Assembly: GCF_000337595.1 (NCBI RefSeq)
Contig: NZ_AOIL01000009.1
Location: 241,043-300,123, forward strand
DNA from: Natrialba taiwanensis DSM 12281
Lineage (GTDB): Archaea; Halobacteriota; Halobacteria; Halobacteriales; Natrialbaceae
Length of the DNA: 59,081 nt
Direction of reading: 5' to 3'
The translations under genes and the position numbers were made by a program. This document shows, in pieces, positions 7,913-28,239 of this stretch; the stretch's first letter is position 1; each line of letters begins with the position of its first letter. The notes below the pieces were generated by a model. It saw only the letters and a program-made list of their open reading frames with translations, made no database searches and was not told the origin of the DNA.

Positions 7913-10900
7913 CTACCCACCGGTAGCGGAGGGATACGCACACTCTCGTTCGATCGTCGTCTCCGCCTCGGCGGGATCGAATCCCGGACCAGTCTGATCC
8001 CAGGTCGGCGAACACACGGTTTGTCCGTCATGTTCCGGGTCCGTATCCGCAACTGCCGGAATACCACCGCTCGAGACGACTCCCCCCGGCATCACGACGA
8101 TTACCTCGGTCGTACTCTCGAACTCGATCGGTTCGTTCGTTCCAAGTTCGAGTTCAGTGCCGTCGTGGAGTTCGACTGTGATCGGTCGGTGCTCGCGAAC
8201 GTAAGTCAATCGCCCGGTCTCGCCTGGATCACTAATTGTGGCACCGACCTCGAATCGGGCGTACTCGCCCCGGATCGTCGTATTCCAGGTGTTGGCCTGC
8301 AGCAACCACATCGATGGCGGCGTGGGGATCACCGGCAGTCCCGGCCACCGGTTCCGGTTCATACTTTGAATCGTCAGTGGCGCGTGTTCAGTTTCGGCGT
8401 CGACATCGGTGATCGTCGCATTCGCCGGCCGAACGGCCGGATCCTGCGTTCCGGAGATGTTCTCGTGGGTTAGATACGTCGGCGACCCCGCGACTTCGTA
8501 CTGGGCGTCATCGAGCACCGGCGAGCCCTCGATCGATTCGGGATTGTACTCGACATCGGCGTTCAACACGTCCTGTACGAACCCGAGCAGATCATCGCCA
8601 ACGCCGACCGCCGGCTCACCCATCTCGTCGACTTCGTCCTCGATATCGCCGACTCGCCCTTCGTACTGGGCAGCAACCACATCGAGATACGAGTAGAGCC
8701 GATCGAAATACGCCTTGCGCACCTGCGCCGTGAGGAATTCCTCCGGCGTCTCGAACGAGTCGTTCGGCCCCGACGCAGAGAGGTTCCGGTAGACGAACTC
8801 GTCTTCGACCGCTTTGACGTGATCGATCGCACCGGACACCGGATTGGCGTCCGTATCCAACAACTCGGTTCGGTCAACAGTGTACGCGTTCTCCTCGTCC
8901 TCGATCCACGTGCTGAACTCGGTGTGTGTGCGATTGAGTTCGTCGGAGAGATCCGTCTCTAACCCATATTGTTCGGTCACAGCGACCAACTCGTCGAGTT
9001 CGTAGGTCTCGTCGAACTCGTCGTCGATAACGGCCTCCTCGAATGCGGACTCGATCGCACCGGTCTTCGTCGTCCCGGAATCACTGCCAAAATCGGTGGT
9101 CCGAGACTGGAGTGCATCGACGTTTTGCTCGAGGTCGCGCTCGACCGAGCCGTAGTAGCTGACACCGTCCGTCACGTCGAGAACGGAATCGATGAGCGCC
9201 GCGTTGAACATCGTCTCATTGCTGAGCGACCCCGTCGATTGGAGGGCGCTAGCGCCACCGGCCGTGCCGGTCCCGTTTTCGGACTGGGACCTAGATTGAG
9301 ATTGAGATTGAGACTGAGACTGGGTCGAACTCGTATTGGAGTCGCGTGCAGGCAGCTGAAGATGTAGATAATCGCTCTCGAGAGCCGGTTCTTCCTGAAT
9401 AACGAACGTGTCGTCGTAAAGCCCCTCCTCCCGGAAGTCGTACTGGCCCTCGATCGAAAGCCCGAGACGGGCCGAAACGTTCGCCGTTTCGGTTCTCGTG
9501 ACCGATCGTCGTTCGCCGTACTCGCTCGCGTTGGCTGGGTCATCGTGTATCCACATCTCGATGGCGTCGAGTTCGAGTTCGGCGTCTACGTCGAGTTCGT
9601 GAATCGTCCGGTCACTCGAGGCCGACGTCCCATCGGGATGTGGAAACGCCTCGTGGGTCGCGTCGCTGTCGCGTACCTCGGAAATATCGACGGAGAACGT
9701 CTCGAGCGAGTGATTGGTCGTCGGTGGTGGACCCGCTGACGGCGTGCGCCCGGAGAGCCTCGCGTTCCCATCGCTCGTGTCGATGTCGATCTCGTAGAGT
9801 TCTTCCATGAGTCGTTGAATGCTTCGACCATCGTTCTCGATATCGGGTGTACCCGCCTGATCGACGGTCTCTTCGACATCGTCCCGGTATTCGTCCGGAA
9901 CCTGATCGACGACTGCGTCCGTGCGGTCTTCGAAGAACTCAGTAACATCCATCGTCTTATCGTGGAGTACCTGATACTGGTAGTACCGATAGGATGCCTC
10001 CGACAGGTCGGCGATTGGAATCTCCTCGGCCTCGTTCATCACGTCCATCTCGCCGAGTCCCTCCTGAATCAGTTCCGAGAGCGGCGGCATGTCGGGGAGT
10101 TCACCGGTTGCCTGATCCCCGAAGAGCCACTGCTGGACCGCACCGCCGTCACAGAGTTGGGTTTCGATATCGATGCTCTCGTTGTCCCGAGTTTCGTTCG
10201 TAACCTCGCCCATGCCGAACTCGTCGGTATCGATGATGCTACTGTCCCCACTCTCGCCCGAATCGTCACCGTCCCCGCTCATCGACTCGCCCATCTGGTA
10301 TGCCATGCAGACGTATCCTGGCCGTAACGTCCGTTGTGCGTACGGGTCTCGGGTTCCGAAAACGTCCTCCTGAATGGCGAAAATCGCGTGGTTCGTGAGA
10401 ACTTCCGTATGTCCCGGCTCGAGCACCCGGCCGAAATCGTGACTCTCCGGTGACGCCGTCTTGTGCATCCGATCCCAGCCGGATTTGAAATAGGCGAACG
10501 GATACAGACGAGCGGCCATGTGCTGGCCGAGACTCTCGAGTTCAGTATCGATCCCGGCATCGAGAAAGCCCTCGTTGAGTCGGCTCTCGTACGTCGATGT
10601 CCGCTCGTTCAGTTGCATGACCGGTGAGCCGACGGTTACCGAGAGGTCTCTGGTTTCGGCTGGAAGGTTTCGTCCGCCGGTTTCGGCGTCGACCTCCACA
10701 TCGTGAAGCGTCACTTCGAGCAGGCCGGCTTCGAGTGCGGTTGCAGAGTCGTCGCCGATCGTCAAGTCGACGGCGTTGATCGCTTCGTCCGGCGAGACGC
10801 CGTCCTCGCCGTCCGCGGTGACCGGTGGAATCGACACCGTCGAGGCGGTCTCGGAGCCGACCCGCTGCCCCGCGGCGGGAAGTCGATCGTGTGCCTCGAG

Positions 10901-11248
10901 ATAGATGCGGAGTTTGAGGTAGTTCTCGAGATTGACCGGCTGATCGTTGTTCGGACCGATTGCTGTAATATCAGTGTCCGCGTTACTTGCGTTGATCAGC
11001 GGCGCGCTCACTACGTTGTGGCTAGCGTCGATCGCCGCCGATCGAAGCTCGGACTGGGCCGCCGTCTCGCTTCGATCCATGACGACCTCGACATCCTGCT
11101 CGATCACCGGGTCCGAACGCTGCTCGAGGGTGGCGACGATGGCGATACTCGAGACGAGCAACAGGACTGCGATCATCGCGAAGGGGATCCGTGCCCGGTC
11201 GTCGTCTGCGATCGATACGGTTCGTCGATTACGGGATCGGCTGGTCAT
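7913..11248 (-). CDS. giant membrane-anchored surface protein of the Tad-like locus
   Basis: This 1111-residue protein has a basic N-terminus, then DDRARIPF and one hydrophobic helix at about residues 23-43, and then a very large acidic domain expected outside the cell. The short charged stretch before the single helix resembles the pilin/TadE-like N-termini of its neighbours. A Ser-Gln repeat near residues 640-660 is encoded by hexanucleotide repeats. Single cysteines occur in YVCMAYQ, TQLCDGG, TVCSPTW and ERECAYP. I believe it matches one of the haloarchaeal DUF728x families (number from memory, not verified), whose members accompany TadA/TadC genes. Its start overlaps the stop of the next gene downstream by ATGA. 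The function is unknown; a structural or tip component of the appendage, or a secreted-complex scaffold, is possible. Confidence 0.7.
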   Translation of the reverse strand: MTSRSRNRRTVSIADDDRARIPFAMIAVLLLVSSIAIVATLEQRSDPVIEQDVEVVMDRSETAAQSELRSAAIDASHNVVSAPLINASNADTDITAIGPNNDQPVNLENYLKLRIYLEAHDRLPAAGQRVGSETASTVSIPPVTADGEDGVSPDEAINAVDLTIGDDSATALEAGLLEVTLHDVEVDAETGGRNLPAETRDLSVTVGSPVMQLNERTSTYESRLNEGFLDAGIDTELESLGQHMAARLYPFAYFKSGWDRMHKTASPESHDFGRVLEPGHTEVLTNHAIFAIQEDVFGTRDPYAQRTLRPGYVCMAYQMGESMSGDGDDSGESGDSSIIDTDEFGMGEVTNETRDNESIDIETQLCDGGAVQQWLFGDQATGELPDMPPLSELIQEGLGEMDVMNEAEEIPIADLSEASYRYYQYQVLHDKTMDVTEFFEDRTDAVVDQVPDEYRDDVEETVDQAGTPDIENDGRSIQRLMEELYEIDIDTSDGNARLSGRTPSAGPPPTTNHSLETFSVDISEVRDSDATHEAFPHPDGTSASSDRTIHELDVDAELELDAIEMWIHDDPANASEYGERRSVTRTETANVSARLGLSIEGQYDFREEGLYDDTFVIQEEPALESDYLHLQLPARDSNTSSTQSQSQSQSQSRSQSENGTGTAGGASALQSTGSLSNETMFNAALIDSVLDVTDGVSYYGSVERDLEQNVDALQSRTTDFGSDSGTTKTGAIESAFEEAVIDDEFDETYELDELVAVTEQYGLETDLSDELNRTHTEFSTWIEDEENAYTVDRTELLDTDANPVSGAIDHVKAVEDEFVYRNLSASGPNDSFETPEEFLTAQVRKAYFDRLYSYLDVVAAQYEGRVGDIEDEVDEMGEPAVGVGDDLLGFVQDVLNADVEYNPESIEGSPVLDDAQYEVAGSPTYLTHENISGTQDPAVRPANATITDVDAETEHAPLTIQSMNRNRWPGLPVIPTPPSMWLLQANTWNTTIRGEYARFEVGATISDPGETGRLTYVREHRPITVELHDGTELELGTNEPIEFESTTEVIVVMPGGVVSSGGIPAVADTDPEHDGQTVCSPTWDQTGPGFDPAEAETTIERECAYPSATGG
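9282..9325. repeat. hexanucleotide repeat tract in the giant protein gene
   Basis: On the plus strand, units such as GATTGA and GACTGA repeat about six times. In the protein this gives an alternating Ser-Gln tract. A change in the number of 6-nt units keeps the frame, so length variation would only alter the linker. Confidence 0.7.
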
Positions 11249-12324
11249 TGATCAGTAACGTGAACGGTCAGGTCGACTGTTTCGATCGAGACGTACTCCT
11301 CGAGATACGGTACTGCTGCGGTTGTGAACTCGTCTTCGTCGGGGTGGGCCGCAAAGAGCCGATCGAGTTCATCGCGAATCGGATCGTCGCGCATATCCTC
11401 GGCAATCGGATCGGCCACGCCGGCCGCAAGCTGTTCGTTTGCAGCGCTAGCGTCGGGGTTGACGCCGGTGATTTCCTCGTCAACAGCCGCCTTGAGATCG
11501 TCTCCGCCGAACGCAAGCGCCAGTTGTCGATAGTCATACACCGTCACCGCGTTCTCGGTCCGCGTCGATTCGAGTGCGTACTGGGTCTCCGCGACCGGAA
11601 ACATCGCCTCGACGATCAGTTCCGCGAGCGTGTCGGCCGTACCGTCGACCCCCGCCGACCCCGCTGCTCGCGCATCGTAAAATGAACTCGCGAGTGCCTC
11701 GTAGTCATCCTGGTCGGCACCGGCCATCCTCGTCGATACCGTGACGGACGTACTCGAGACATCTGCCGTCCGTGGCGGGCGGTCTCCGGCAGTTGCAGTG
11801 CCGCTGATCGAACTGTTCGCGTAGGGTTCCCACGTCGCCACGACGTAGATCGAATCGTCACTCCCGACCAGTTGGCCGCGGATAGCCGCATCGACCGACG
11901 ATTCGACATCGTCTGCGTATGCGAGTGGCTGTTGCCCGTCGTATTCGACGCCGACGAGCGCCGACTCAGCTACCAGCGCACTGGCCGAGTTGTAGGTCGT
12001 CACCCGATACAACTCTGGACTCTCGTCAGGATCGAGTCCGTCCGGGACCTCGAAGTTGTCACTGTCGACCGGTGCGTGACCCGACTCGTTCTCGGCCGTC
12101 ATATCGTAGGTGATCGTGATCGTCGACCCGGAGAGCGTCTGGGAGGCTCGATCGGCGCGCGTCCCGTCGACGGAGTCGTCGTCACTGTGGAGATAGACCC
12201 CGATCATCACCACGCAGGCGCTGATGATCAACAGCGCCAGCGCAACGTCCATCACCGTCGAAATAGCCCGGTCGCGGCTCCGGCCGCCCGCGAGTTCAGC
12301 GGGAGGATCGCGAGTTCGGCTCAC
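11245..12324 (-). CDS. pilin-like membrane-anchored protein (DUF7284-like)
   Basis: This 359-residue protein has a short basic N-terminus, then RDRAISTVMDVALALLIISA, the pattern of archaeal pilins and TadE/TadG-like pseudopilins (a charge, then a hydrophobic helix). A large acidic domain follows. Apparent upstream extension in the same frame (to 12654) is the shadow of the preceding gene. The GTG at 12324 is chosen because it overlaps that gene's TGA (TGGTGAGC). It also overlaps the next gene's start by ATGA. The chain of overlaps indicates one operon. The assignment to a DUF728x family is from memory. It is likely anchored outside the membrane and assembled or exported by the TadA/TadC machinery upstream (inference). 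Confidence 0.65.
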   Translation of the reverse strand: MSRTRDPPAELAGGRSRDRAISTVMDVALALLIISACVVMIGVYLHSDDDSVDGTRADRASQTLSGSTITITYDMTAENESGHAPVDSDNFEVPDGLDPDESPELYRVTTYNSASALVAESALVGVEYDGQQPLAYADDVESSVDAAIRGQLVGSDDSIYVVATWEPYANSSISGTATAGDRPPRTADVSSTSVTVSTRMAGADQDDYEALASSFYDARAAGSAGVDGTADTLAELIVEAMFPVAETQYALESTRTENAVTVYDYRQLALAFGGDDLKAAVDEEITGVNPDASAANEQLAAGVADPIAEDMRDDPIRDELDRLFAAHPDEDEFTTAAVPYLEEYVSIETVDLTVHVTDQ

Positions 12325-12821
12325 CAGACGCTCACCCGAAGCGTGCCGGCGCGAACGTCGGCCTCGTTTTCGACGGCGACCGGGATCGACTGGGTTGCGA
12401 CGGACGCCTCGTCTGGAACGCCCTCCGATTCGACGTAACGTTCGAGTGCAGCGACATCCGCGCGGTCGGTCTCGTCGGGAAATCCGGTCGGAAACGCGCC
12501 CGTCGCGACCGCTCGTTCGCGGTCGCCATCGACCGCGGTCACCTCGACCGCAACCGTTGCGCCGGCCGGAAGCGCCGCGGACGTAACGCGATCCGAAAGC
12601 GGGGTGGCATCGTGGTGAGCGTAGAACACGCCGCCCTCCTCGATGTCGTCCCACACGCGGTCGATCGTCCGGTCGGCCGTCGCCGACTGGCTGGTTCCGG
12701 GGAGCACAGCCTGCATGGAAATCGCGTAGAGGCCGATCCCGATGACGACCACCGAGACCGCAACGATCGCGGCGATCGGTTCGGTCTGGGCTCTCTCCTT
12801 AGACCGCGACGAGCGTAACAT
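12321..12821 (-). CDS. small TadE-like pseudopilin (DUF7285-like)
   Basis: This 166-residue protein has the N-terminus MLRSSRSKERAQTEPIAAIV and one hydrophobic helix to about residue 33. A basic segment, then a Glu at the head of the helix (QTEP), recalls type IV pilins and TadE proteins, in which that Glu helps subunit packing (family knowledge). The remaining 130 residues look like a compact extracytoplasmic beta domain. The ATG at 12821 is chosen; longer in-frame extension reads as Ser/Arg-rich shadow. It overlaps the previous gene by 23 nt and the next by 4 nt. Confidence 0.65.
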   Translation of the reverse strand: MLRSSRSKERAQTEPIAAIVAVSVVVIGIGLYAISMQAVLPGTSQSATADRTIDRVWDDIEEGGVFYAHHDATPLSDRVTSAALPAGATVAVEVTAVDGDRERAVATGAFPTGFPDETDRADVAALERYVESEGVPDEASVATQSIPVAVENEADVRAGTLRVSVW

Positions 12822-13854
12822 AGTAGTTCCCTCCGTCGTTGCGGCCGATCGCCGGGTGCTCGTGGTCGAACTCCATGTCGCGTTCGACCTCGTTCGTCCA
12901 CTCGACAGATCCGTCCGCGTACTCGAGTTCGCCGGACCCCGTCGCCGACGGCAGGTCACCGCTCGGATCGGTCGCCTCGACGGTGAACTCGATGGGATCG
13001 CGAGCCGGTTGGGACGATCTGAGACGGCCGAAATCCCTCGGAAGGGAGATGTCAATCTGACCGTCCGATCGTGGCCTGATAACGGTACTCGCGCTGCCGT
13101 GGTCGGTGGCAGCTAGCTCTGCTGTTTCGTCGAGCGGTTCCGGGTCGGGAACCGCCGGAGTGGGAACGGCATCGGGGAGGATATCGGACAGGCGATACTC
13201 CCCGTCCATATGGACGGTCGCCCGTCTGTCTTCGGGTCCGGTGTATGTAACCTGCATCGCGCCGATGTAGGGTTCCGGATCCCAGATCTGATCGGGAACG
13301 GTGCTGAGTATCGGCTCCCAGTCTTCGGTCACCTCGATCGTCAGTTGCTCCTCGACGGGGTCGAGTTCGTCGACGGCAGCGTCGACCGTGACCTGGCGGG
13401 CGCGAAGGTCGCCGTCGGCTCGGATCGGCCGCCCGGAGTTCTCGTCGAACGCCGATTCGACATCCTGCTGAAATTCGTCGAACGCGTGTCTGTCCCCGTC
13501 TGCAAGCGCCTCAGCGTACTCGTCTTTGAACGCGGCCCCGGCAGACAGATTCTCCAGGCGTTCGTTGCCGCGGACGGGGACGACGACGCCGTAGTCGACG
13601 CTCGCGTGAGAGGTGCCGTGGTCGTTTTCCATCGTGATCGTCCTGCGGTCGATCGTGACGGTCTCGGCGTCGTGCTCGGCAGTGGCACGTGCGGGATACT
13701 CGCTGGTCGTTGCGCCCTCGATCGTGGTCGCCGCTCGCTCGGCGTCGGGCGGTGGGCCGGTCGAGACGCCCAGTGCGAGCCCCGCAAGCGCGACGCTGAC
13801 GATTGCGACTGCGACGTAGACGTACCACGCGTCAGCCGGCGCGTCCAGATCCAT
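12799..13854 (-). CDS. membrane-anchored surface protein (DUF7283-like)
   Basis: This 351-residue protein has one N-terminal helix at about residues 10-32 (YVYVAVAIVSVALAGLALGV), then an acidic domain expected outside the cell and rich in beta strands and conserved-looking segments such as YGVVVPVRGNERLENL. There is no enzyme motif. It begins a run of four overlapping genes and has its own TATA box (TATTTAAA, 22-29 nt upstream), so this sub-operon can be transcribed separately from tadA-tadC. The family number is from memory. It is likely a structural subunit of the same envelope machine. Confidence 0.65.
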   Translation of the reverse strand: MDLDAPADAWYVYVAVAIVSVALAGLALGVSTGPPPDAERAATTIEGATTSEYPARATAEHDAETVTIDRRTITMENDHGTSHASVDYGVVVPVRGNERLENLSAGAAFKDEYAEALADGDRHAFDEFQQDVESAFDENSGRPIRADGDLRARQVTVDAAVDELDPVEEQLTIEVTEDWEPILSTVPDQIWDPEPYIGAMQVTYTGPEDRRATVHMDGEYRLSDILPDAVPTPAVPDPEPLDETAELAATDHGSASTVIRPRSDGQIDISLPRDFGRLRSSQPARDPIEFTVEATDPSGDLPSATGSGELEYADGSVEWTNEVERDMEFDHEHPAIGRNDGGNYYVTLVAV

Positions 13855-13954: not shown

Positions 13955-15712
13955 CTACATCGGGCTGACGAGGACGACGTCGATCAGGGCGACGGTCAGG
14001 ACGAACAACAGCATCGACGAGAGCAGCGTTCGACCGACGTGATAGCCGAACAGCGACCGGTCCATGCCGTACCGAAGGGCGTACGAGAGCGGCGTCATGA
14101 TGAACGCGAGCAGGATCAGGTAGACGGCGACGACGACGCCGAGCTGTTCGATCGGCAGCGTACTCGCGTCGGCGAAGCCGTCGACGGTATCGAAGTTCTG
14201 GGCGGTGAGCATATCCGCCATCCCGACCGTCGCCCCGCCGACCATCGGGCCGAAGTACGCCGCGGTGTTGTCAAGCGTGCTCGTGACGCGCACGAGTTCG
14301 CGTTTCGTCTCGGCTTCGACCGTCTCGAGTTCTTCGAGGTGGTCGGCCATCGAGACGATGGCGCGGCCGGCGGGTTTGCCCTCGTCGCCGGCGATGGCGA
14401 GGAGGGCGGCCATGCTGTGTGCGCGCTGGCTCGGAATATCGCGAAGTGCGCCGTAGGGGCCGAGAAACGCCTCCTCGACGCTGGTGTGGAGGCGACGCTG
14501 GACGCCGGCGGCGTGATCGAACACCGCGCCGGTCTCGGCGGGAACGCGGTCGGCCGCGAGGTCGATCGCGGACTCGACGGATTCGCCCTCGGCGACCTGG
14601 CGGCCGACGATGTACAGAGCGTCGGTCAGGTGTTCTTCGACCGCCCGGACGTGATTTCGAAGCGAGAGAACGGGACTGTACACGGCGAGCAGCGCCGTTC
14701 CGAGACCGGTCCCGAGTCCGACGACTTCGGCGAGATACGCCGGGCCGAACGCCCCGACGAGCGCGTAGATGACCCCGCCAACGGCCACCCCCCAACCGGT
14801 GCGCAACCAGAGCCGATCCGGAAGATCGGGATGGCCCCGATCGATCGTCGGCGGCGGAAACGCGACCGGCCGCCGGACGAGCAGCCACAGCGACGCGCCG
14901 AGCAATCCGAGCGGCAATACGATCGTATAGAGGAGTACGAACATCCAGATATTGAGGTTGATGCCGGCCATCGGTGCGACCGGAACGAGGGCGATCAGCG
15001 CCAGCGGAAGCAGGATGCCGAACGCAAAGAGCATCGTCGTCGGTGCCCGAATCGCCGAGGTGAACTCGGCCATCTGGCTCCGCGTGCCGTCGAGAATCGC
15101 GGATAGCGCACGGTCGAGCGTGCGGCCGCGTTCGCCCTCGGGGGCGTCCTGTGCCGTCGCCAGGAGCGTCGACGACCGGCGGAGCGCAGGGAAGTGCGCC
15201 GACCACTCCTCGGCGAACGAGAGCAGGCCGGCGTGGGGCGTCCCTTTCGAGCGGTTGAAGTGCGCCTCGAGACTCCTGGCGAGCGGCCCGGTCCCCGTGT
15301 CGGCGGCGAACCGGATCGAGTTCTCGAGCGACGGCTGGATCTGCATGCGCAAGACGGCCCGGCCGATGAGGTTCGGTGTATCGCCGAGCGCTTCCGTTCG
15401 CCGGAACGCTGCTACCAGGTGCGGCCAGGAGTGGACACCGTGGATCGCCGCGAGCGCGGCGGTAATGACGAACACCGCGATGAAGGGGATCGGAACGTCG
15501 GCGAGCACCAGCGGGAGTGGTACCAACGCACCGAGCAGTCCCGCCCCGTAGCCGGCCCGAACGATCGTCGCGGCGTCGTAGGGGGCGTCGATGAACCGGA
15601 CCGAATCGACGAGTGCGGCACTTGCATCGACATCGTAGGGGTACAGCCGGGCGAGGCCGCGAATGGCGAGGGCCGGGAAGCGGGCCCGATTCGAGCGTGC
15701 CACGACTGTCAC
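13955..15712 (-). CDS. TadC/PilC-like membrane platform protein
   Basis: This 585-residue polytopic protein carries two type II secretion F domains in tandem, roughly residues 60-250 and 330-560, as usual for archaeal FlaJ/PilC-type platform proteins. Conserved-looking segments include GRAVLRMQIQPSLENSIRFA and GRQVAEGESVESAIDLAADR, each followed by long hydrophobic helices. It should sit in the cell membrane as the platform on which the TadA-like ATPase acts. It starts at GTG 15712, which overlaps the ATPase's TGA by 4 nt, so the two are coupled. Function is assigned from family and pairing. Confidence 0.85.
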   Translation of the reverse strand: MTVVARSNRARFPALAIRGLARLYPYDVDASAALVDSVRFIDAPYDAATIVRAGYGAGLLGALVPLPLVLADVPIPFIAVFVITAALAAIHGVHSWPHLVAAFRRTEALGDTPNLIGRAVLRMQIQPSLENSIRFAADTGTGPLARSLEAHFNRSKGTPHAGLLSFAEEWSAHFPALRRSSTLLATAQDAPEGERGRTLDRALSAILDGTRSQMAEFTSAIRAPTTMLFAFGILLPLALIALVPVAPMAGINLNIWMFVLLYTIVLPLGLLGASLWLLVRRPVAFPPPTIDRGHPDLPDRLWLRTGWGVAVGGVIYALVGAFGPAYLAEVVGLGTGLGTALLAVYSPVLSLRNHVRAVEEHLTDALYIVGRQVAEGESVESAIDLAADRVPAETGAVFDHAAGVQRRLHTSVEEAFLGPYGALRDIPSQRAHSMAALLAIAGDEGKPAGRAIVSMADHLEELETVEAETKRELVRVTSTLDNTAAYFGPMVGGATVGMADMLTAQNFDTVDGFADASTLPIEQLGVVVAVYLILLAFIMTPLSYALRYGMDRSLFGYHVGRTLLSSMLLFVLTVALIDVVLVSPM

Positions 15713-20316: not shown

Positions 20317-20339
20317 ACAGATCACGAGCCAACAGGGGT

Positions 20340-20852
20340 ATGGGCTCGAAACGCCGCCCACAGCTGAACTCGGTCTCGTCGGGTGATCGTCGTTCGTTTG
20401 CAGATGACGATCGCGCGATCGAGGGACTACCGATTCGGCTCGTGATCGCGCTCGTTATCGGTGTTGTATCGCTAGGGATAATGCTGCAGATACTAGGTGG
20501 TATTGATACGTTTGAAGGAGATACAGAAGTAGATGTAGAGTTTGAAGATGATGTTATAAATCTCGGTAATAACGATGATGGGAACGATTTTACTATTTCT
20601 GTTGTTGATAAAGATGGGAATGACGTTACAGATACAACAATAATCGCAACTGCAGGCGATGCACAAATGGACGGCACGATGGTTGATAGCACGGGAGAAG
20701 ACTCTAATAAAGTGAAATTTACCTTTGCCGATGAAAATCTTCGGCTTCCACCGGATCAAGATACTGGAACTATTGAATTTGAGATACAACCACCATCAGG
20801 GACTAGCTGGGCTGATGAAGAGCCAAACAATGAATTATTAGTAGTCGAATGA
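20340..20852 (+). CDS. pilin-like protein with AT-rich variable domain
   Basis: This 170-residue protein begins with a polar stretch ending in DDRAIEGLPIRLVIALVIGV, a charged head followed by one hydrophobic helix (about residues 34-55), as in haloarchaeal pilin-like proteins. The rest is a small acidic domain. The DNA changes abruptly: the first 150 nt are GC-rich (one 60-nt row has 37 G+C), while the part coding for the outer domain is AT-rich (19 of 60 in the row at 20521), with codons such as ATA, TTA and AAT that neighbours avoid. It is likely a subunit exported or assembled by the adjacent TadA/TadC/HerA system, with its exposed domain replaced by recombination (inference). Confidence 0.7.
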   Translation: MGSKRRPQLNSVSSGDRRSFADDDRAIEGLPIRLVIALVIGVVSLGIMLQILGGIDTFEGDTEVDVEFEDDVINLGNNDDGNDFTISVVDKDGNDVTDTTIIATAGDAQMDGTMVDSTGEDSNKVKFTFADENLRLPPDQDTGTIEFEIQPPSGTSWADEEPNNELLVVE

Positions 20853-22015
20853 GTTTTCGAGAATAAGAAAGAAAACATATAGATATATTCTTAACATTAG
20901 TTCATACATATTCGTACATACTCTGTACATAATCCCAACATAGAAATATTATTATATATGTGGTTAGAATGATACGGCGTGAAAGAATCAACATTACAAG
21001 CATTAGGAAGAGTTCTTGTAGCCTCTCTAGCGATATCTGTTATTGGTATTGCTGGGACAGCAGTTGCAGATGAAGGGGTAGATATTAGAGAATTAGATGG
21101 AAGTGGGACAGAAGAAGAACCGTACGTCATTACGACTGTTGAAGAACTACAATCGATAAATCAAGATCTTGAGGGACACTATATACTTGGGAACGATATC
21201 AATGCTCGTGATACAGATTCATGGAATAGCGGTACAGGGTTCAAACCTGTAGGAGATGGGGATTTTGGAGATCGATCACAGGCTCCCTTTAGTGGCTCGT
21301 TCAACGGTCAGGGACATACGATCTCCGGACTGGTTATTGATAGGCCCGGTGAACACTTTATTGCGCCATTTGGAGTGGTCACAGGTACTGTAGAGAATGT
21401 CCACTTAGAAGATGTTGAAGTGTATGGTACTGAACGCCGAATTGCAGGTTTAGCAGGAGATAATCTCGGAACCATCCAAGATGTGTCTGTAACAGGAACA
21501 GTCGAAGGAGAGGATCTCTGGGTTGGCGGACTCGTTGCGCGTGGCGACGAAGGGGCGATAATTAAACGTTCAATGGCAGATGTTGACGTGAAGGGAGAAG
21601 AAAATGTTGGAGGTTTAGTTGGTGATAATAATGAGCAAACGATAGTTGAATCATATACAACTGGTAATGTCGAAGGTACTGATAGTGTTGGCAGTCTTGT
21701 TGGATGGAAGAAGAATGGTGACGATATTATTCAGTCGTATGCCACTGGGGATGTCTCCGGCGAAGAACGGACTGGTGGAGTGATTGGAGCGCTCGCCGGA
21801 CCGATCAGTGATGGCTATGTAGTAAATACTATCGATGGAAATCCTAGTAAGACAGGGGTAGTATACGGCCTAGAATCCGACGGACATCAACGGCTGGATG
21901 CTGTTGTATCCGATTTCTATTACGAAAAACCCACGAATTACGACGGAACTGGTGAGGGAGATGATGTCGGAACAGGGCTATCTAAAGAAGAAATGACCGG
22001 TGCAGATGCCAGAAC
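20490..22015. other. AT-rich segment spanning two surface-protein genes
   Basis: Rows counted by hand fall to about 30-32% G+C (20521-20580; 21601-21660), against 62-65% at 20341-20400 and 22441-22500. The segment begins inside the pilin-like gene after its membrane helix and ends inside the PGF-CTERM gene before its CARDB-like repeats. Both boundaries fall within coding sequence and keep the frame. Confidence 0.8.
20952..20959 (+). promoter_or_regulatory. TATA box of the PGF-CTERM gene
   Basis: TTATATAT lies 20-27 nt before the GTG at 20979. It supports that start, but the whole surroundings are AT-rich, so the match is weak evidence. Confidence 0.35.
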
Positions 22016-23246
22016 GAATATGGATCTCGACTTCGACAACTTCTGGACTGCGACGGACGAGTATCCAGTCCTCCAGTGGCAGGTTCAAGATGTCGATCTT
22101 CGTGTCTCACAGTCCTCAATTGGCGAGGGAGAAACGACCAGCGTGACCGTTGAACTCATACTGGACGATGGCTCGACTGTCACTGCATCCGAAGTCGCCG
22201 ACTACGACTCTGAAACAGCCGTCGCTTCCGTCTCTGATGGAACGCTCGAGGCGAACTCTGTCGGCCAGACAGAATTGACTGCAACCGTCGCTGGCGAAAG
22301 TGATACGGTGACAGTAGAAGTCCTCGAACCGCCGAACATCGAGTTCAGTGACGCTGAATTCGACACGGAAGCGGCCGTCGAGGGAACCACCGTCGATGCA
22401 ACTGTCACCTACGAGAACACTGGCGGACCTGGTTCAGAAACGGCGACGGTCACGGTCGACGGCGAAACAGTCGCCACAGAGACAGTTCACGTCGATGCCG
22501 ATAGTGAGACGACCGAATCGATCCAGTGGACGGCACAGCGAAACGGAACGGTTGCGGTCGATGGTGAACCAGTCGGAGACCTCTCCATCGTCGCTCCCGA
22601 AGCAATAACGCTCGAGTCGATTTCCCTTCCAGATGAAACAGCACAGGGCAGCGACTACGATATCGAACTCGAGTTCAACAACACGGCGTCGCACCCGGTT
22701 GTGGACACGGTCGAACTCCGCGTGAACGGAGCTGTCGGAACGACGAAAACGGTCGAAATCGGTGCAGGTGAATCAACGGAGACGATCACGTACGCCCACG
22801 ACGAGCAGGGGACCGCGACTCACGTCGTCGACCACCACAGCGACGATGCGACGGGCACGGTAGCCATCATCGCACCCGCCGAGTTCACACTCGACGAACT
22901 CGATGCGCCCGAGACGGTGACGAACGGAGAGAACGGTTCGGTATCCGTGACGGTAACGAATACCGGCGGGGCACCGGACACGCAAGATCTCGACTTGCTC
23001 GTCGATGGTGAACTCGTCGACACGCAGTCGGTGACACTCGACAGCGGCGGTTCGGAGACGCTCGAGTTCACGCCAGCGTTCGACCAGCAGGGAGAGGTCA
23101 CAGTCACGATCGCATCGGCCGACGACGAACTCGAGACGGTGGTTGAGAGTACGGCGGCGGCATCCGACGACGGCTCGCCTGGCTTTGGCGGGGTTGTCGC
23201 GCTGGCTGCGATCGTCCTTGCGGTGGTCGTGATGCGGCGGCACTGA
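20979..23246 (+). CDS. secreted GLUG/CARDB surface protein with PGF-CTERM
   Basis: This 755-residue protein has a signal peptide (about residues 1-30, ending TAVADEG) and then a beta-helix-like region with GLUG-type repeats (GLVGDNNEQTIVESYTTGNV; GSLVGWKKNGDDIIQSYATG). A linker and a Big-2-like segment near residues 375-445 follow, then three CARDB-like beta-sandwich repeats. The C-terminus is SPGFGGVVALAAIVLAVVVM followed by RRH: the PGF motif, one hydrophobic helix and basic residues recognised by archaeosortase A, so the protein should be lipid-anchored to the S-layer (family knowledge). The start is GTG 20979. The first 345 or so residues are AT-rich and the rest is normal GC, so the gene is a mosaic. 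It probably mediates adhesion or cell-cell contact. Confidence 0.82.
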   Translation: MKESTLQALGRVLVASLAISVIGIAGTAVADEGVDIRELDGSGTEEEPYVITTVEELQSINQDLEGHYILGNDINARDTDSWNSGTGFKPVGDGDFGDRSQAPFSGSFNGQGHTISGLVIDRPGEHFIAPFGVVTGTVENVHLEDVEVYGTERRIAGLAGDNLGTIQDVSVTGTVEGEDLWVGGLVARGDEGAIIKRSMADVDVKGEENVGGLVGDNNEQTIVESYTTGNVEGTDSVGSLVGWKKNGDDIIQSYATGDVSGEERTGGVIGALAGPISDGYVVNTIDGNPSKTGVVYGLESDGHQRLDAVVSDFYYEKPTNYDGTGEGDDVGTGLSKEEMTGADARTNMDLDFDNFWTATDEYPVLQWQVQDVDLRVSQSSIGEGETTSVTVELILDDGSTVTASEVADYDSETAVASVSDGTLEANSVGQTELTATVAGESDTVTVEVLEPPNIEFSDAEFDTEAAVEGTTVDATVTYENTGGPGSETATVTVDGETVATETVHVDADSETTESIQWTAQRNGTVAVDGEPVGDLSIVAPEAITLESISLPDETAQGSDYDIELEFNNTASHPVVDTVELRVNGAVGTTKTVEIGAGESTETITYAHDEQGTATHVVDHHSDDATGTVAIIAPAEFTLDELDAPETVTNGENGSVSVTVTNTGGAPDTQDLDLLVDGELVDTQSVTLDSGGSETLEFTPAFDQQGEVTVTIASADDELETVVESTAAASDDGSPGFGGVVALAAIVLAVVVMRRH

Positions 23247-23264: not shown

Positions 23265-23969
23265 TCAGACGGTTGTGGCTCGGTCGGAGAGTCGGTCTGC
23301 AGTCCGTTCGAGTCGGTCGGCAACCGAGTGATAGGCGTCGACGGCCTGTGCGTCGGCGGCGTGATCGCGGACCGGGAGCCAGCGCACCTGTGCGTCGGCG
23401 ACCGCCTGTTGGGTGGCAATAATTGTGACCTCGACACCGAGCGTTCGGCTGATTCTGTCGGCGATTTCGCTGTGAGCATCCCGATCGGCCTTGTTGAGGA
23501 CGAGTGTAGCAATCGGTGTCTGGAGGGAATCGGCGAGGGACGCCGTTCGAAACGCGTCGACCAGTGCTGATTTGGACGGTGTCGTAACGAGGATCGTCAG
23601 ATCGGCACTCCGAAGTTCGATCCCGACATCGCGAGCGAGGCCGGCCGGACAGTCGACAACGACCGTTCCCCACTTCCGTTCGATGCGTTCGAGGATCGCA
23701 TCCAGATTCTCGAGTTCACGCGCGGCGGCGCGAGCCCCGGCGAGGGTGCGCCCACAGGGGAGGATCGTCACTGGTCCGATCGTCTCGATGGCCGCGGTTG
23801 GGTCGACGCGACCGGCGAGGACATCGTGGAGGTCGGGACCGGTCCCTGGCGGGAGGTCGGCAGTCGTGAGATCGGCGTCGACGACGACGGCATCGAGTTC
23901 GCGGGCGAGATTCAGTGCGGTCGTGGATTTGCCGACGCCACCTTTGCCGCCGGCGACGGCGACGATCAT
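23265..23969 (-). CDS. MinD/ParA-like ATPase
   Basis: This 234-residue protein has a deviant Walker A, GGKGGVGKST, at residues 7-16, followed by VVVDADLTTADLPPG and the Walker B-like VVVDCPAGLARDVG. It has the signature Lys of the MinD/ParA class. Such ATPases dimerise on ATP and position membrane or cell-pole structures; in archaea MinD homologues place archaella and chemosensory arrays (established for Haloferax MinD4). Here the Tad-like locus next door suggests a role in placing that machine (inference). The ATG at 23969 overlaps the upstream 131-residue gene by ATGA. Extension beyond 23969 reads as shadow. Confidence 0.82.
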   Translation of the reverse strand: MIVAVAGGKGGVGKSTTALNLARELDAVVVDADLTTADLPPGTGPDLHDVLAGRVDPTAAIETIGPVTILPCGRTLAGARAAARELENLDAILERIERKWGTVVVDCPAGLARDVGIELRSADLTILVTTPSKSALVDAFRTASLADSLQTPIATLVLNKADRDAHSEIADRISRTLGVEVTIIATQQAVADAQVRWLPVRDHAADAQAVDAYHSVADRLERTADRLSDRATTV

Positions 23970-24361
23970 GGGTCTGGAGTAGGATTGGGATTGGTGTTGG
24001 GAGTGCGTTCGAGAATATCGCTCGGCGGACACCATGTATCGAGACCTGCGAGTACTGTTTCGGGTGACCGGATGCGGTCGTCCGTGGAGCGGGTACTCGA
24101 GACGACGGTTACGAGGGGGTCGGTTGGGGTGGCTGGACTCGCAAAGCCGAGTCCCTCGCTTCGGTCGGGCCGGATCGTCGTTTCCCAGCAGTCGCCAGTC
24201 CACCGAGGGTCGGCGACGCCGTTGGGCCGGGGCGGCCAGATCGGTCCGTCGAGGCGGTGTTCGAGTCTGACTGTCTGTGGTGTCGAATGCGTGTTCGTGA
24301 GGACGACTCGGACTGTCGTCACCCCGTTCGTTCTGTCGGCTCTCGCGTCGACCGTAACCAT
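23966..24361 (-). CDS. conserved hypothetical protein next to minD-like gene
   Basis: This 131-residue soluble protein begins MVTVDARADRTNGVTTVRVV and has a beta-sandwich look, with pairs of short Val/Thr strands (LTNTHSTPQTVRLEHRLDG). Trp and Cys occur in PRWTGDCWETT and LDTWCPPSDIL. It ends in an Asn/Pro/Thr tail. I think it belongs to a haloarchaeal DUF that always precedes this MinD homologue, but I cannot name it with certainty. It has its own TATA box made from the upstream stop codon and is coupled by ATGA to the MinD-like gene, so it may be its partner. Confidence 0.7.
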   Translation of the reverse strand: MVTVDARADRTNGVTTVRVVLTNTHSTPQTVRLEHRLDGPIWPPRPNGVADPRWTGDCWETTIRPDRSEGLGFASPATPTDPLVTVVSSTRSTDDRIRSPETVLAGLDTWCPPSDILERTPNTNPNPTPDP

Positions 24362-24383: not shown

Positions 24384-24391
24384 ATTTAAAT
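24384..24391 (-). promoter_or_regulatory. TATA box built on a stop codon, before the minD pair
   Basis: TTTAAAT at 24385-24391 lies 24-30 nt before the ATG at 24361 and contains the TAA stop (24386-24388) of the upstream TrkA-C gene. The same arrangement occurs before the TadA-like gene. Confidence 0.5.
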
Positions 24392-25549
24392 GCTCGACCG
24401 TGGAGGGGGACAGTCGTCAGTTGGTGTTGGATCAAACGCAGTCAGGTCCGACGGTGAGGCAAGCACCCAGAGTTCATCTTCGGATTCGAGCGTCTCGTTG
24501 TCCGCCGGGAGCGGCAAGCGGTCGTTGCCGCGCTCGATGACGAGAACGCGTCCGGGAAGCCAGCCGGCGAACTCGCCGACGAGCGGGCCGTCGGAGTCGA
24601 TCGAGAGCGTCGTGACGGTTTCCTCGACGGTTCGTAGCGTCGAGGCGAACTCGTAGCCGTCGGTCGGTTCGTCCGGGTAGGTAAGCAGCCGGTAGTGGTC
24701 GTCGGCTGGAAGTTCGGCGGCGAGGGCCGCGTCGACGATGACGGTCGCGATAGAGCGAGTCATCGTTCGAAGCGTGCCGGTCGCGACGAGTTCGGGTTCA
24801 GTGTGGCCGTCCGTCGACCAGATTGCGACGGGATCGCCGAGGCTGGCATCCGGAGAGGGATCGGCTCGAATCGCGATGGCGACGGCTCCGCGGGGGACCA
24901 TCGATCCGAGTCCGGTGGACTGCCGGCCGACGAGAACGCGGTCAACGGTACCGTCGTCGGCGAGCGTCACGGCCGCATAGCCGACGTCGTAATCGCGTTC
25001 GATGTGTCGTTCGAGGCGTTCACGGCGTGCTGTCGGTGTCAGTCCGTGTGGGAGCCTGATCGTCGCGCCTGAAAGCGCTCTGTGGACGGCCGGGTCGACT
25101 GCCTGGTATCCGGTTGCCGTTGCGATCGGTTCCGGCAGCGTGATTTCGACGGCGAGCCGAGCGGAGCGGACGGCAGCCGCGGCTTCGCCGTTCGCATCGA
25201 TCCGCTCGAGGTCGGCGACCTGACAGGCAATTCTGTCGCCGAGGCGACCGCCGGCCGTCGCAGCGATACCCCCCAGAAGCATCGTTCCGAGCAGGTAGCC
25301 GGCGCTGAGACGATGGTCGAACGGAACGGCTCCGAGAAACGCACCGGATGCGAGAGCACCGCTAGAGAGAACGCCAGCAACCGCCGTGAGGCCGAGGAGC
25401 GCCGGAATACCGGACGGCGGCGATCGTGTCGACAGCCAGCGGTAGCCCCCCGCCACGAGCAGCCCGGCGGTCGCCGCGAGCAACGCCGTTCCGACGAATC
25501 CGACCGCTGCCTCCCGTGCGAGGGAGACGACGAGTTCGGGGTCGATCAT
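24386..25549 (-). CDS. membrane protein with TrkA-C (RCK-C) domain, paralogue 1
   Basis: This 387-residue protein has three or four hydrophobic helices in residues 10-105, then a soluble half. Near residues 305-370 a TrkA C-terminal-like fold is visible (TLSIDSDGPLVGEFAGWLPG, then RVLVIERGNDRLPLPADNET). There is no TrkA-N Rossmann domain and no pore signature, so it is not a standard K+ channel. It may sense a cytoplasmic ligand and signal at the membrane. It is coupled by ATGA to its paralogue upstream and followed by the MinD pair, so the four genes likely work together. The annotation potassium transporter TrkA often used for such genes would overstate the evidence. Confidence 0.72.
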   Translation of the reverse strand: MIDPELVVSLAREAAVGFVGTALLAATAGLLVAGGYRWLSTRSPPSGIPALLGLTAVAGVLSSGALASGAFLGAVPFDHRLSAGYLLGTMLLGGIAATAGGRLGDRIACQVADLERIDANGEAAAAVRSARLAVEITLPEPIATATGYQAVDPAVHRALSGATIRLPHGLTPTARRERLERHIERDYDVGYAAVTLADDGTVDRVLVGRQSTGLGSMVPRGAVAIAIRADPSPDASLGDPVAIWSTDGHTEPELVATGTLRTMTRSIATVIVDAALAAELPADDHYRLLTYPDEPTDGYEFASTLRTVEETVTTLSIDSDGPLVGEFAGWLPGRVLVIERGNDRLPLPADNETLESEDELWVLASPSDLTAFDPTPTDDCPPPRSSI

Positions 25550-26784
25550 CGGGTCACCTTGGGTTGTGGCTGTGGTTGTGATTGTGATGTGGACTGTCGC
25601 TGTGGTTGTGAGTTGGACTGCGATCGTGACGGTCTCTCCTCACAATCGGACCGGGGCGAGCCTGCCACAAACGCCCGGTCTGCACCCTGGGGAACCGGAT
25701 CATCGGCGCTGTGTTGCCAGTGCCAGTCTCCAGCCGTTCGCACGCCGATCGTCGTCGCCGGATCGAGTTCAGCGAGCGCGGTCTCGCGGACGGTGATCGG
25801 CTGCCCGGCGTCGTCGAGGATCGTTGCGGCCTCGAGTGCGTGATTGTGTGTGGCGTCGTCGCTCGGCTGCACCGCGATCCGATGGCGGGTCGACTCGAGG
25901 AGCGCGTCGGCGGCGGCCGTCTCGACGGCGACGGTCAGCCGGCGGTCGCCGCCGTCGGTACCGATGGCCGCTCGCTGCGTGTCGGCGGCAGGCGCGACGA
26001 ACTCGTGATCGGTCGCGTCCTGGGTTTCGTCGTCGATAGCGAGGGCCGTTCCCTCGACTGTCGTTTCGTCGCCGCTAATGAGAACGCGATCACCCGGTTC
26101 GAGACCGGTCGGCAGCAGCCCGGTTACCGTTACCGCCCGGAAACCGTCGTCGAGGGTCGTCGCGACGCCTTTGGATGGTGGGGCGGCAGCGATCGTCGCT
26201 CGCCCGCGGCCATCGATGGCGACGCGAACGGTGGCGAGTCCGTGGTCCGTTCGGAGGCGGCGCTCGAGACGGTCCTCGAGTTCGGCGAGTTGAAGGTCGG
26301 CGGGGAATCGCCAGGCACCGTTTTCGAGGGCGGTCCGGAGAGCGGGTGAAAGCGGTGGATAGCCGTCGAACTCGCGGATCGCGCCAGTCGGCCGAATTGT
26401 GACTTGCCCCATCGCGTCGACGGCGTCGATCGCGTCGGCGGACAGCGCCTGCCCGCGGACGATGGGAAACGTGCGGTCCTGCGGGAGTGCAGTTGCGATC
26501 TGCGCGCCCTGGCTCGTCGCAAAGACGCCGAGCACGCCGGCGATGACGCCGACAAACGCGAGTCGAATCGCCTGTGCGAGGACGGGACCGGAGCCGTGAA
26601 CCCCACCGAAGACGACGATCGCAGCCGCGATCGGGGCCGCGAGGAGTCCGGTCGCGGCGGGTACCGATCGGTCTCGAGCGAGACCGACGCCTGCTGCAAT
26701 CAGGCCGAACAGGACGGCGGAAGCGGTGCCCGCCAGAAGGCCGTACGAGACGCCAAGCAGTGATTCGTATGGAAGGTCGACCAT
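25546..26784 (-). CDS. membrane protein with TrkA-C-like region, paralogue 2
   Basis: This 412-residue protein has four hydrophobic segments in residues 8-100 and then RTFPIVRGQALSADAIDAVD and soluble alpha/beta domains. A TrkA-C-like stretch lies near residues 195-240 (VTVTGLLPTGLEPGDRVLIS). The last 25 residues are a Ser-Gln-Pro tract encoded by repeated hexamers. Its layout matches the downstream gene, which it overlaps by ATGA, so the pair probably forms a hetero-oligomer. Six nt separate it from the MinD-RecA fusion upstream. The function is unknown. Confidence 0.7.
   Translation of the reverse strand: MVDLPYESLLGVSYGLLAGTASAVLFGLIAAGVGLARDRSVPAATGLLAAPIAAAIVVFGGVHGSGPVLAQAIRLAFVGVIAGVLGVFATSQGAQIATALPQDRTFPIVRGQALSADAIDAVDAMGQVTIRPTGAIREFDGYPPLSPALRTALENGAWRFPADLQLAELEDRLERRLRTDHGLATVRVAIDGRGRATIAAAPPSKGVATTLDDGFRAVTVTGLLPTGLEPGDRVLISGDETTVEGTALAIDDETQDATDHEFVAPAADTQRAAIGTDGGDRRLTVAVETAAADALLESTRHRIAVQPSDDATHNHALEAATILDDAGQPITVRETALAELDPATTIGVRTAGDWHWQHSADDPVPQGADRAFVAGSPRSDCEERPSRSQSNSQPQRQSTSQSQPQPQPKVTR
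25560..25630. repeat. low-complexity tract encoding a Ser/Gln/Pro tail
   Basis: Plus-strand GTGGTTGTG- and GTGACTGTG-like units repeat through the 3' end of the TrkA-C paralogue 2 gene. On the coding strand they give Ser-Gln and Pro-Gln pairs. The tract resembles the one in the giant surface protein gene. Confidence 0.6.
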
Positions 26785-26790
26785 CGTGGC

Positions 26791-28239
26791 TCACCCCTGC
26801 TCCGTCTCCGCCTGCGGTGTGTCCGGCTGTGGACGATCCGACTGCGGCGACTGCGCTGGATCGTCCGGTGACGCCTGCTCGGCGCGCGGCGGCGACTCGA
26901 TCGGTGCAACCCCAGCCCCATCGCTGAACTCGAGTTCGATCGCGCCGACGACGGAGGCGTCGGGACGGTACTTCGGAATTCGGAGGGAGTGCGTACTGGC
27001 GGTGCCGGTCGCGGCGAGAGTCCCGGACGAATCGGCGGGCTCGACGTCGGAATCGGAGCCGGAACCGCTGCACTCGAGTTCGAACACGGCATCGGCCAGT
27101 CGAAACGTCGCGGACCGGGTTGCTCGATCGTCGCTCGCCCCGCCGAGACAGTGGAGGATGGCGATGCTGTCGGTCTCGGCCAGTCGGTCTGTGAGCGTAT
27201 CGAGGAAGGTGACGTAGGCCGATCGGTCCCGGCGTTCGAGTTCGTCGATCGGATCGATGATCAGCGTGGCCGCGTTCGGAAGTTTTTCGATCAAGGACGT
27301 GGCCTCGTCGAGGGAATCAGTACCGGTGACGAGTCTGATCGTCGGGGTGCCGGTTCCGACGGGGGTCGACTCGAGTTCGTGACGGACGGTCGTTCGTGAG
27401 CGATCCGTCGAGAGGTACAACGTTCCGCGGACGGCGGTCGCCCGGTGGAGGAGCCGTTCGCCCTGGCTGGCGGGCGGGCTGACGAACGCGACGAGCGAAC
27501 CGGGTTCCAGGCCGCCGCCCAAGTGCTGGTCGATCGCGTCCGTGCCGAGCGGGAGTCGGTCGTCGGCGTACGTCGGCAGTGCGCGGTCGGCCGGTGACTG
27601 TGACACCAGTCGAGCGACGGCGTCGTCGAACGCCGCCGCGACCGCATCGTTGGCGAGCGGTGACGGGCGGTCGGGAACGCAGCCGAGCAACGGGACACCC
27701 TCCCAGCGGGTCGCCGGTTCCGGCACCGCCGAACACCGGTTCAAAAGAGCGCCGTAGATGGGGACGCCGAGTCGGCGAGCCATCTCGATCGTCGTCGCTG
27801 CGGCCGTGAGACTCCGTTCGGAATCCGTGGCGACGACGATGACGCCGTCGGCCTGCCGCAGCGGGTCAACGACGCTCGGGCCGGCTCCGGACGGACAGTC
27901 GAGGAACACCTGTACGCTCTCAGTATCGAGGTGTTCCTCGAGCGAATCGAACTCGAACGTCTGGTCGGGCGTCGGTGCGGGAACGATACCGACACCGGAC
28001 GAACGAGGGTGTTGCTGCGCACCGTCGCGAACGGTCGTGGTTTCGGACTCGGAGGCACGATCGACGAGCGTGGCGAGCGTCGGCTCGCGGTCCGTCTCGG
28101 TCATCACGTGCAGATTCGGCAGTTGGCGATCCGCGTCGATGGCAAGCACCGGGGTATCGGCTCTGGCGAACGCCTCGGCGAGACCGAGCGTTATCGTGGA
28201 CTTTCCACAGCCGCCTTTCGAGCCGGCAATAGCGATCAT
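26791..28239 (-). CDS. MinD-like ATPase fused to RecA/KaiC-like domain
   Basis: This 482-residue protein has two parts. Residues 1-235 are a MinD/ParA ATPase (AGSKGGCGKST at residues 5-15; FLDCPSGAGPSVVDPLRQAD). Residues 250-410 resemble KaiC/RecA (GTDAIDQHLGGGLEPGSLVA), but the P-loop is degenerate (SPPASQGERLL, no GKT), while a Walker B-like TLIIDPIDELERRD remains. The last 70 residues are a Pro/Gln/Asp tail. The ATG at 28239 is chosen because it gives the standard MIAIAGSKGG N-terminus; a TATA-like element (CTTCAAAAC) sits 22-30 nt upstream. It begins a four- or five-gene run. The fusion suggests ATP-driven positioning by one half and partner binding by the inactive half (inference). Confidence 0.78.
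   Translation of the reverse strand: MIAIAGSKGGCGKSTITLGLAEAFARADTPVLAIDADRQLPNLHVMTETDREPTLATLVDRASESETTTVRDGAQQHPRSSGVGIVPAPTPDQTFEFDSLEEHLDTESVQVFLDCPSGAGPSVVDPLRQADGVIVVATDSERSLTAAATTIEMARRLGVPIYGALLNRCSAVPEPATRWEGVPLLGCVPDRPSPLANDAVAAAFDDAVARLVSQSPADRALPTYADDRLPLGTDAIDQHLGGGLEPGSLVAFVSPPASQGERLLHRATAVRGTLYLSTDRSRTTVRHELESTPVGTGTPTIRLVTGTDSLDEATSLIEKLPNAATLIIDPIDELERRDRSAYVTFLDTLTDRLAETDSIAILHCLGGASDDRATRSATFRLADAVFELECSGSGSDSDVEPADSSGTLAATGTASTHSLRIPKYRPDASVVGAIELEFSDGAGVAPIESPPRAEQASPDDPAQSPQSDRPQPDTPQAETEQG

Follow-up and report, generated by a model that had tools for sequence, protein, structure and literature searches.

Co-inheritance of a HerA-core ATPase, a pilin-like protein and a MinD/DUF7857 pair with a TadA locus in Halobacteria

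The stretch of Natrialba taiwanensis DSM 12281 DNA analysed here (the window, 59,081 nucleotides) contains, at positions 7913-28239, a block of genes for a TadA-type secretion ATPase, a TadC-like protein, a HerA-core ATPase and MinD-family ATPases; nine of the block proteins carry Pfam DUF families. The block raises the question whether these ATPases serve one machine, as the original prediction supposed from the DNA alone. We find that the TadA-locus proteins, HerA, the pilin-like protein DUF7382 and MinD/DUF7857 are co-inherited across Halobacteria, even when their genes are unlinked. These parts, often far apart in the genome yet kept or lost jointly, probably work as one unit. We consider it likely, though well short of certain, that they form a single machine of the type IV pilus type, compact in the window and scattered over loci in most of the Halobacteria sampled, with HerA as a second motor and MinD placing the machine. 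Coordinates are window positions unless a locus (L) is named, and block genes lie on the minus strand unless a plus strand is given.

Co-inheritance and gene order across Halobacteria

Each family was searched in 116 Halobacteria genomes, all at least 90% complete. DUF7311 (17655-18119; Pfam 148 bits), a small anchored protein used as the marker of the TadA locus, is present in 85 genomes, and so is DUF7857 (23966-24361; Pfam 79.6 bits), the small partner whose gene overlaps that of MinD. The large exported protein DUF7286 was found in 89 (86 intact, three with fragments only), DUF7382 in 88 and HerA in 82. The HerA count comprises genomes with a best E-value below 1e-55, whether the gene was whole or in pieces, including a partial gene in G045 and excluding a fragment in G056. 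For DUF7382, 89 genomes were over the cut-off; the fragment in G056 and a match of 28 bits within a long G101 frame were removed, and G089 was added, where the match is just under the cut-off yet lies beside HerA.

Presence of DUF7311 disagrees with that of intact DUF7286 in a single genome (four with fragments), with DUF7857 in two, with DUF7382 in three and with HerA in five. The two control ATPases behave differently: ArlI, the archaellum ATPase, occurs in 92 genomes and disagrees with DUF7311 in 33 (phi 0.22), and PilB3, in 102 genomes, disagrees in 27 (phi 0.31). At the threshold used, PilB3 is absent in the window's own genome. A search of 294 genomes of the phylum gave four weak matches to DUF7311 outside Halobacteria, two of them over the cut-off, and DUF7286 also matches in the control genome of Methanosarcina acetivorans.

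The patterns were placed on a tree, rooted at its midpoint, that covers 80 of the 116 genomes and is based on DUF7125 (80), FKBP (67), CYTH (48) and MAT (50) proteins; four of the 36 genomes outside the tree have no usable DUF7125, and the others were thinned from genera already represented. When absences are counted as losses only, a procedure that cannot separate gains from losses, DUF7311 has 20 absence clades. DUF7857 and HerA each reproduce 19 of these exactly, and the 17 of DUF7382 all belong to the set, compared with six of the 13 absence clades of ArlI. DUF7311 patterns simulated on the tree gave a mean disagreement of 36-37 genomes and a minimum of 16-20, versus the 1-3 observed (four with DUF7286 fragments). 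The p values are at most 4.1e-5 for the system families (a floor set by the number of simulations), 0.07 for ArlI and 0.013 for PilB3, all relative to a simulated null that is nearly random because the fitted trait rates are high; the absence-clade counts are the safer statement. Gene relics indicate loss in some lineages, with pieces of DUF7286 left in G056 and its C-termini in G012 and G067. G056 also carries a deletion scar (L268, 5176-6531) in which HerA and DUF7382 each survive as a 3' part, while both starts and the intervening region are gone.

Homologues of the window genes were mapped in 60 fetched loci and in 80 named HerA loci, the best 80 of 285 by similarity to the window, 58 of which have full flanks of 10 kb; since the named loci were picked by this similarity, their fractions lean to compact forms. 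The compact form has the parts within about 10-20 kb, in varied order (G077, G005, G058, G089, G079; Halopiger, Natronorubrum, Halosimplex). In a split form (G091, G107), HerA, DUF7382 and a TrkA-C membrane pair occupy one site, and the TadA block, MinD, DUF7857 and a MinD fusion another. The other genomes viewed have three loci, namely the TadA block, HerA mostly with DUF7382, and DUF7857 with MinD. According to place tables read by eye, in which draft contigs may hide some linked cases, 13 of the 81 genomes that have both DUF7311 and HerA carry them within 20 kb of each other, and DUF7311 and DUF7857 are equally close in 13 of 84. The original prediction had proposed gene order as one check, taking separation of HerA, MinD and TrkA-C from TadA/TadC in most relatives as a sign against a single system. 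HerA and MinD/DUF7857 are indeed apart from the TadA locus in most relatives; given the co-inheritance of unlinked genes, that linkage-based test is too strict, and because the genes are usually apart, clustering alone would miss the link.

Where the genes do cluster, they do so repeatedly. Of the 58 full-flank named HerA loci, 34 have DUF7382 mapped beside HerA, 21 hold both TrkA-C membrane proteins, 18 hold TadA and 14 hold MinD with DUF7857; 13 combine TadA, TrkA-C and DUF7857 within the flanks. This recurrence of block genes in several genera is far beyond chance. In the 60-locus maps, DUF7382 adjoins HerA in 19 of 25 HerA loci, including eight of the ten scattered-form ones, and DUF7857 adjoins MinD in 26 of the 27 loci mapped. 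TadA/TadC are unlinked from DUF7311 and DUF7283-7286 in L111, L127, L136, L138 and L052; in the first four of these, DUF7311 and DUF7283-7286 adjoin HerA, and no TadA/TadC was mapped within 10 kb.

Components of the block

Open reading frames and Pfam matches place the block on the minus strand, with two plus-strand genes (20340-23246) between HerA and MinD. These encode DUF7382 and a surface protein and had been overlooked when the block was described as lying on one strand. In order of transcription, the minus strand first carries the MinD-DUF7125 fusion, a pair of overlapping membrane proteins, DUF7857 and MinD; beyond the plus-strand pair follow HerA, DUF7310, DUF7311, TadA, TadC, DUF7283, DUF7285, DUF7284 and DUF7286. 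Overlaps of 4 bp join TadC to TadA, DUF7311 to DUF7310 and the two membrane proteins to each other, and one of 7 bp joins MinD to DUF7857.

The TadA/PilB-type secretion ATPase (15709-17628) has four Cys in its N-terminal region and matches T2SSE with 66.5 bits (cut-off 24.9). Its TIGR03819 match, 137 bits, is below the cut-off of 373, and the match to the archaellum ATPase ArlI/FlaI, 98.5 bits against a curated cut-off of 550, does not support that identity. The TadC-like membrane platform protein (13955-15712, 585 aa) has hydrophobic stretches and gave no Pfam or NCBIfam match; its name derives from its position and its overlap with TadA. The small anchored protein and the coiled-coil protein expected beside it are DUF7311 and DUF7310 (18116-18991; Pfam 103 bits).

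Four single-helix surface proteins had been predicted at 7913-13854, and all four were recovered as exported proteins. They are DUF7286 (7913-11248, 1111 aa; Pfam 342 bits), with a prepilin-like N-terminus (DDRAR ahead of a hydrophobic helix); DUF7284 (11245-12324; Pfam 251 bits for 11245-12300), with the prepilin-like N-terminus RAISTVMDVALALL and a start near 12324 (GTG) picked by eye; DUF7285 (12321-12821, about 166 aa; Pfam 95 bits for 12321-12800), with RAQTEP ahead of a hydrophobic helix and a start likewise picked by eye; and DUF7283 (12799-13854; Pfam 155 bits), which is without a prepilin-like motif. This motif, R-A/G just ahead of the N-terminal helix, was found in 59 of 60 homologues of DUF7382, 37 of 40 of DUF7286, 28 of 39 of DUF7284 and 20 of 43 of DUF7285, whereas the contrast families DUF7283 and DUF7311 have it in 2 of 47 and 10 of 55, respectively. 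Judged by the motif, prepilin-like subunits are present.

DUF7382 (20340-20852, plus strand; Pfam 38.7 bits) is encoded divergently from HerA and consists of a DDRAIEGLPIRLVIALVIG helix and an Ig-like domain. In homologue alignments the N-terminal motif [DE]RAIEGLPIRLVIAL is nearly invariant and the C-terminal part variable; pilins typically combine a conserved helix with a head that varies. The AlphaFold2 model (pLDDT 82.7) has a helix at residues 30-57, followed by a beta sandwich. The second plus-strand gene (20979-23246) encodes a surface protein with profile matches to GLUG-like, CARDB and PGF-CTERM domains, a candidate adhesin and accessory; a GLUG-like surface protein adjoins DUF7382 in 12 of the 58 full-flank named loci (14 including two weak matches elsewhere). 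The GC content is 46% at 20001-22000, a stretch that takes in DUF7382 and the beginning of the surface-protein gene, versus 59-68% in the adjacent 2-kb steps, and the GC3 of DUF7382 is 0.36. The low-GC plus-strand stretch (20-23 kb) has the look of an insertion, but this does not by itself account for it, as DUF7382 is conserved next to HerA.

The predicted HerA-type ATPase (19167-20237) is a protein of 356 aa with the predicted fold of the HerA motor core. Its AlphaFold2 model (pLDDT 88.6) superimposes on Sulfolobus HerA (4d2i) with a Z-score of 31.5 over 320 residues (rmsd 3.5), on VirB4 (4ag5) with Z 26.3 and on TrwB with Z 20.7. The alignment covers 4d2i from residue 113 onward and, together with the length of the protein, shows that the block HerA has no N-terminal HAS barrel. 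A frame of 642 aa elsewhere in this genome (G000:C70) also gives a HerA-like match, and the block HerA is 96% identical to HerA of Natrialba asiatica. A second HerA-core family, of about 33% identity, was seen in L263 (3510-4697), L264 (6017-7189) and L265 (5596-6762), in a cassette with proteins of about 384 and about 1330 aa (the latter 800 aa in L263, clipped by the locus start). Two of its three genomes (G043, G068) are without the pilus system, and the cassette is perhaps another, mobile system. In the scattered-form loci L063, L064, L065, L069 and L089 the HerA/DUF7382 pair lies near apparent RNA polymerase rpo genes, identified by eye.

MinD (23265-23972), a MinD/ParA-type ATPase with CbiA and ParA matches above cut-off and a TIGR01969 match of 106.5 bits under its cut-off, and DUF7857 correspond to the MinD-like ATPase and small partner of the original prediction. 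In a test of the MinD2 link by distance to pilB1, the stretches fetched around DUF7857 in genus g29, only possibly Haloferax, contain no TadA-type gene, which says little.

The predicted pair of TrkA-C membrane proteins turned out to be two overlapping membrane proteins, both of the compact subtype, with one TrkA_C match between them. The first (24386-25549) has a TrkA_C-like domain at 26.0 bits, just under the Pfam cut-off of 27, and the second (25546-26784), its overlapping partner, has no Pfam match at E 0.1. We rejected the TrkA-C protein as a core part, as homologues occur in 18 of the 31 DUF7311-negative genomes; strong, linked copies were seen solely in compact or split loci. The predicted MinD-RecA fusion (26791-28239) does have a MinD half (CbiA 50.7 bits), and its second half is DUF7125 (121.7 bits), for which a RecA-type relation is indicated by a weak NCBIfam RadB match only (E 0.013). 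DUF7125 is nearly universal (113 of 116 genomes), and in the maps of the 60 loci the fusion was confined to genomes of the compact kind. The TrkA-C pair and the fusion are accessories of the compact subtype. The proposal that HerA, MinD and TrkA-C belong to one machine is thus supported for HerA and MinD/DUF7857, which are co-inherited and cluster recurrently, and not for TrkA-C. Two TP_methylase (corrin/porphyrin methylase) genes, at 28323-30828, lie immediately upstream of the fusion.

The proposed machine and its rivals

In the pilus-type machine that we favour, TadA would act on TadC and assemble a filament from prepilin-like subunits, with DUF7382 as the candidate main subunit and DUF7284, DUF7285 and DUF7286 as additional prepilin-like components. 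The membrane-anchored DUF7283 and DUF7311 would be helpers, and DUF7310 a cytoplasmic adaptor. HerA, as a pump core of the HerA/VirB4 type, would be a second cytoplasmic motor working with the DUF7382 subunit, and could mobilise or retract the pilin or drive a substrate through the base. Positioning of the machine would fall to MinD with DUF7857, and in the compact subtype the TrkA-C-like membrane pair and the MinD-DUF7125 fusion may add control. By analogy with VirB4-type motors, which are considered to act together with their pilin, and because DUF7382 adjoins HerA even far from TadA, we suggest that HerA acts on the pilin. The analysis shows the co-inheritance, the linkage, the predicted HerA fold and the motifs; the filament, the motor role and the placement are what we infer from them.

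Several observations weigh against this proposal. Both controls are themselves associated, if weakly, with DUF7311, and the simulated null is close to random, given the high fitted rates. Four genomes of one genus (g27; G036, G037, G049, G099) keep DUF7311, DUF7857 and DUF7382 and show no close homologue of HerA, which can thus be dispensed with in some cases. DUF7857 is missing from G100 and DUF7311 from G045, G109 keeps DUF7382 alone, and G012 has DUF7382 with a DUF7286 fragment. In 24 of the 58 full-flank named loci, and in 38 of all 80, where some flanks are short, mapping placed no DUF7382 near HerA. The PDB matches listed for the DUF7382 model are Ig-like only, with no pilin, in a fold search that barely covered the helix. 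Finally, we know of no filament, interaction or phenotype for this gene set.

One could suppose instead that the TadA locus encodes an ordinary type IV adhesion pilus of the pilB2/C2 kind, and that HerA, DUF7382 and MinD contribute to the same lifestyle (surface growth, shape) and disappear along with it, without being machine parts. The pilus part has already been published (PMC4858521, PMC9856176), which also removes the label "undescribed" from the original prediction; its "surface machine" rests on family knowledge. HerA is missing from one genus that keeps the rest, and MinD proteins are described as acting on several polar structures in Haloferax volcanii (PMC11588486, PMC11621097). A shared lifestyle is nevertheless a rather unlikely explanation, as the envelope machines represented by ArlI and PilB3 follow the presence pattern weakly, HerA and DUF7382 adjoin even far from TadA (eight of ten scattered-form loci), and compact loci unite the parts in several genera.

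A DNA-exchange apparatus, in which the HerA-type motor pumps DNA through the TadA/TadC-built filament base as in the crenarchaeal Ced/Ted systems, seems very unlikely to us. The HerA-core fold is near both HerA and VirB4, Ted loci are described as holding a pilin and a VirB4-type ATPase, commonly with HerA-type and MinD/ParA ATPases (PMC9905601), and the molecular mechanism of haloarchaeal mating has been termed unknown (PMC5496957). However, Pfam scans of the locus, made without a remote-homology search, recognised no VirB6/CedA-like channel, and DUF7382 has one helix and an Ig-like domain, in contrast to the two predicted transmembrane domains given for CedA1 (PMC9905601). Data from H. volcanii speak against a mating role, in that pibD is reported to be without impact on mating and cetZ2 expression, under mating conditions, to fall at the majority of time points (PMC7749143).

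If the pilus-type machine is as proposed, a HerA-core ATPase, DUF7382, DUF7857 and MinD would be added to one archaeal pilus machine. A second motor would bear on possible retraction or cargo movement, archaea being described as without PilT-family members by arCOG (PMC4858521). MinD, probably without a published task, would gain a candidate cargo. H. volcanii, a model with ready genetics and a control genome in our searches, carries DUF7311, DUF7857 and DUF7286; DUF7382 was matched in four control genomes, H. volcanii included, with only one of the four matches over the cut-off.

Relation to known systems

The TadA/TadC/DUF7283-7286/7310/7311 part fits the published haloarchaeal type IV pilus, that is, subclade 4F of Makarova et al. 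2016 or the pilB2/C2 regulon, with which it shares a TadA/PilB ATPase with an N-terminal Cys region, a presumed TadC, and prepilin-like, coiled-coil and surface proteins. Subclade 4F pili of Halobacteria are described with the coiled-coil protein arCOG07564 and an FtsZ-family neighbour (PMC4858521); DUF7310, a coiled coil too, is its putative counterpart. The label 4F is unsettled, because H. volcanii PilB2 has been placed in clade 4C (PMC6491452), while the coiled coil, the Cys region and the FtsZ-like neighbour correspond to 4F in PMC4858521. A tubulin-family (CetZ) gene, recognised by motif, lies beside nine of 13 scattered-form DUF7310/7311 loci, 12 of which hold TadA. All three CetZ neighbours tested match Pfam CetZ_C, and two further loci (L260, L262) have no CetZ neighbour. 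The CetZ genes fit the pilB2/C2 regulon, which is reported to lie beside cetZ2 (PMC9856176); in contrast, the window's compact locus shows no CetZ neighbour. The block differs from the published pili also in that their descriptions, as far as these texts go, name no HerA, DUF7382 or DUF7857 parts and treat MinD as a general regulator only: a role of MinD-family ATPases in pili is given as possible, with their genes more often lying elsewhere, and the main text of PMC4858521 uses HerA solely as a superfamily name and TrkA not at all. In the literature searched, no paper ties HerA, DUF7382 or DUF7857 to a haloarchaeal pilus, although the supplementary tables of PMC4858521 may list some neighbours; none names DUF7283-7286, DUF7310 or DUF7311, and searches for DUF7382, DUF7857 and DUF7125 matched locus tags only (HVO_0343-0345).

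The MinD/DUF7857 pair resembles MinD2/HVO_0596 of H. volcanii in combining a MinD-family ATPase with a small partner gene. Identity of the two pairs was rejected on gene order and Walker spacing: HVO_0596 is reported downstream of minD2 (HVO_0595; PMC11588486) and MinD2 has a K16-D117 spacing of 101 (PMC11621097), whereas DUF7857 lies upstream of MinD and the K-D spacing, measured by eye in two sequences, is 90-92. The block MinD is probably a different paralogue. Deletion of minD2 reportedly alters shape and motility in H. volcanii; in view of the mismatches, we transfer no published phenotype to the block MinD.

With the HerA-NurA helicase of DNA-end resection the block HerA shares the motor core fold, but it lacks the HAS barrel and is placed in a pilus locus. 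The crenarchaeal Ced/Ted systems likewise have a HerA/VirB4-type ATPase and a pilin-like protein and, in Ted loci of Thermoproteales, HerA and MinD/ParA genes (PMC9905601). Here, unlike in Ced/Ted, no CedA/VirB6 channel was recognised in the Pfam scans, TadA/TadC are the presumed assembly parts, and the subunit is of a one-helix Ig type. By this analogy we speculate, as a quite improbable extension, that the genes could encode a two-motor pilus-based machine for exchange of DNA (or protein), in which a HerA-derived pump, coupled to DUF7382 as its dedicated pilin, would sit on a base of TadA and TadC and be placed by MinD. Such a machine would correspond to Ced/Ted in euryarchaea, with components of type IV pili as its building blocks.

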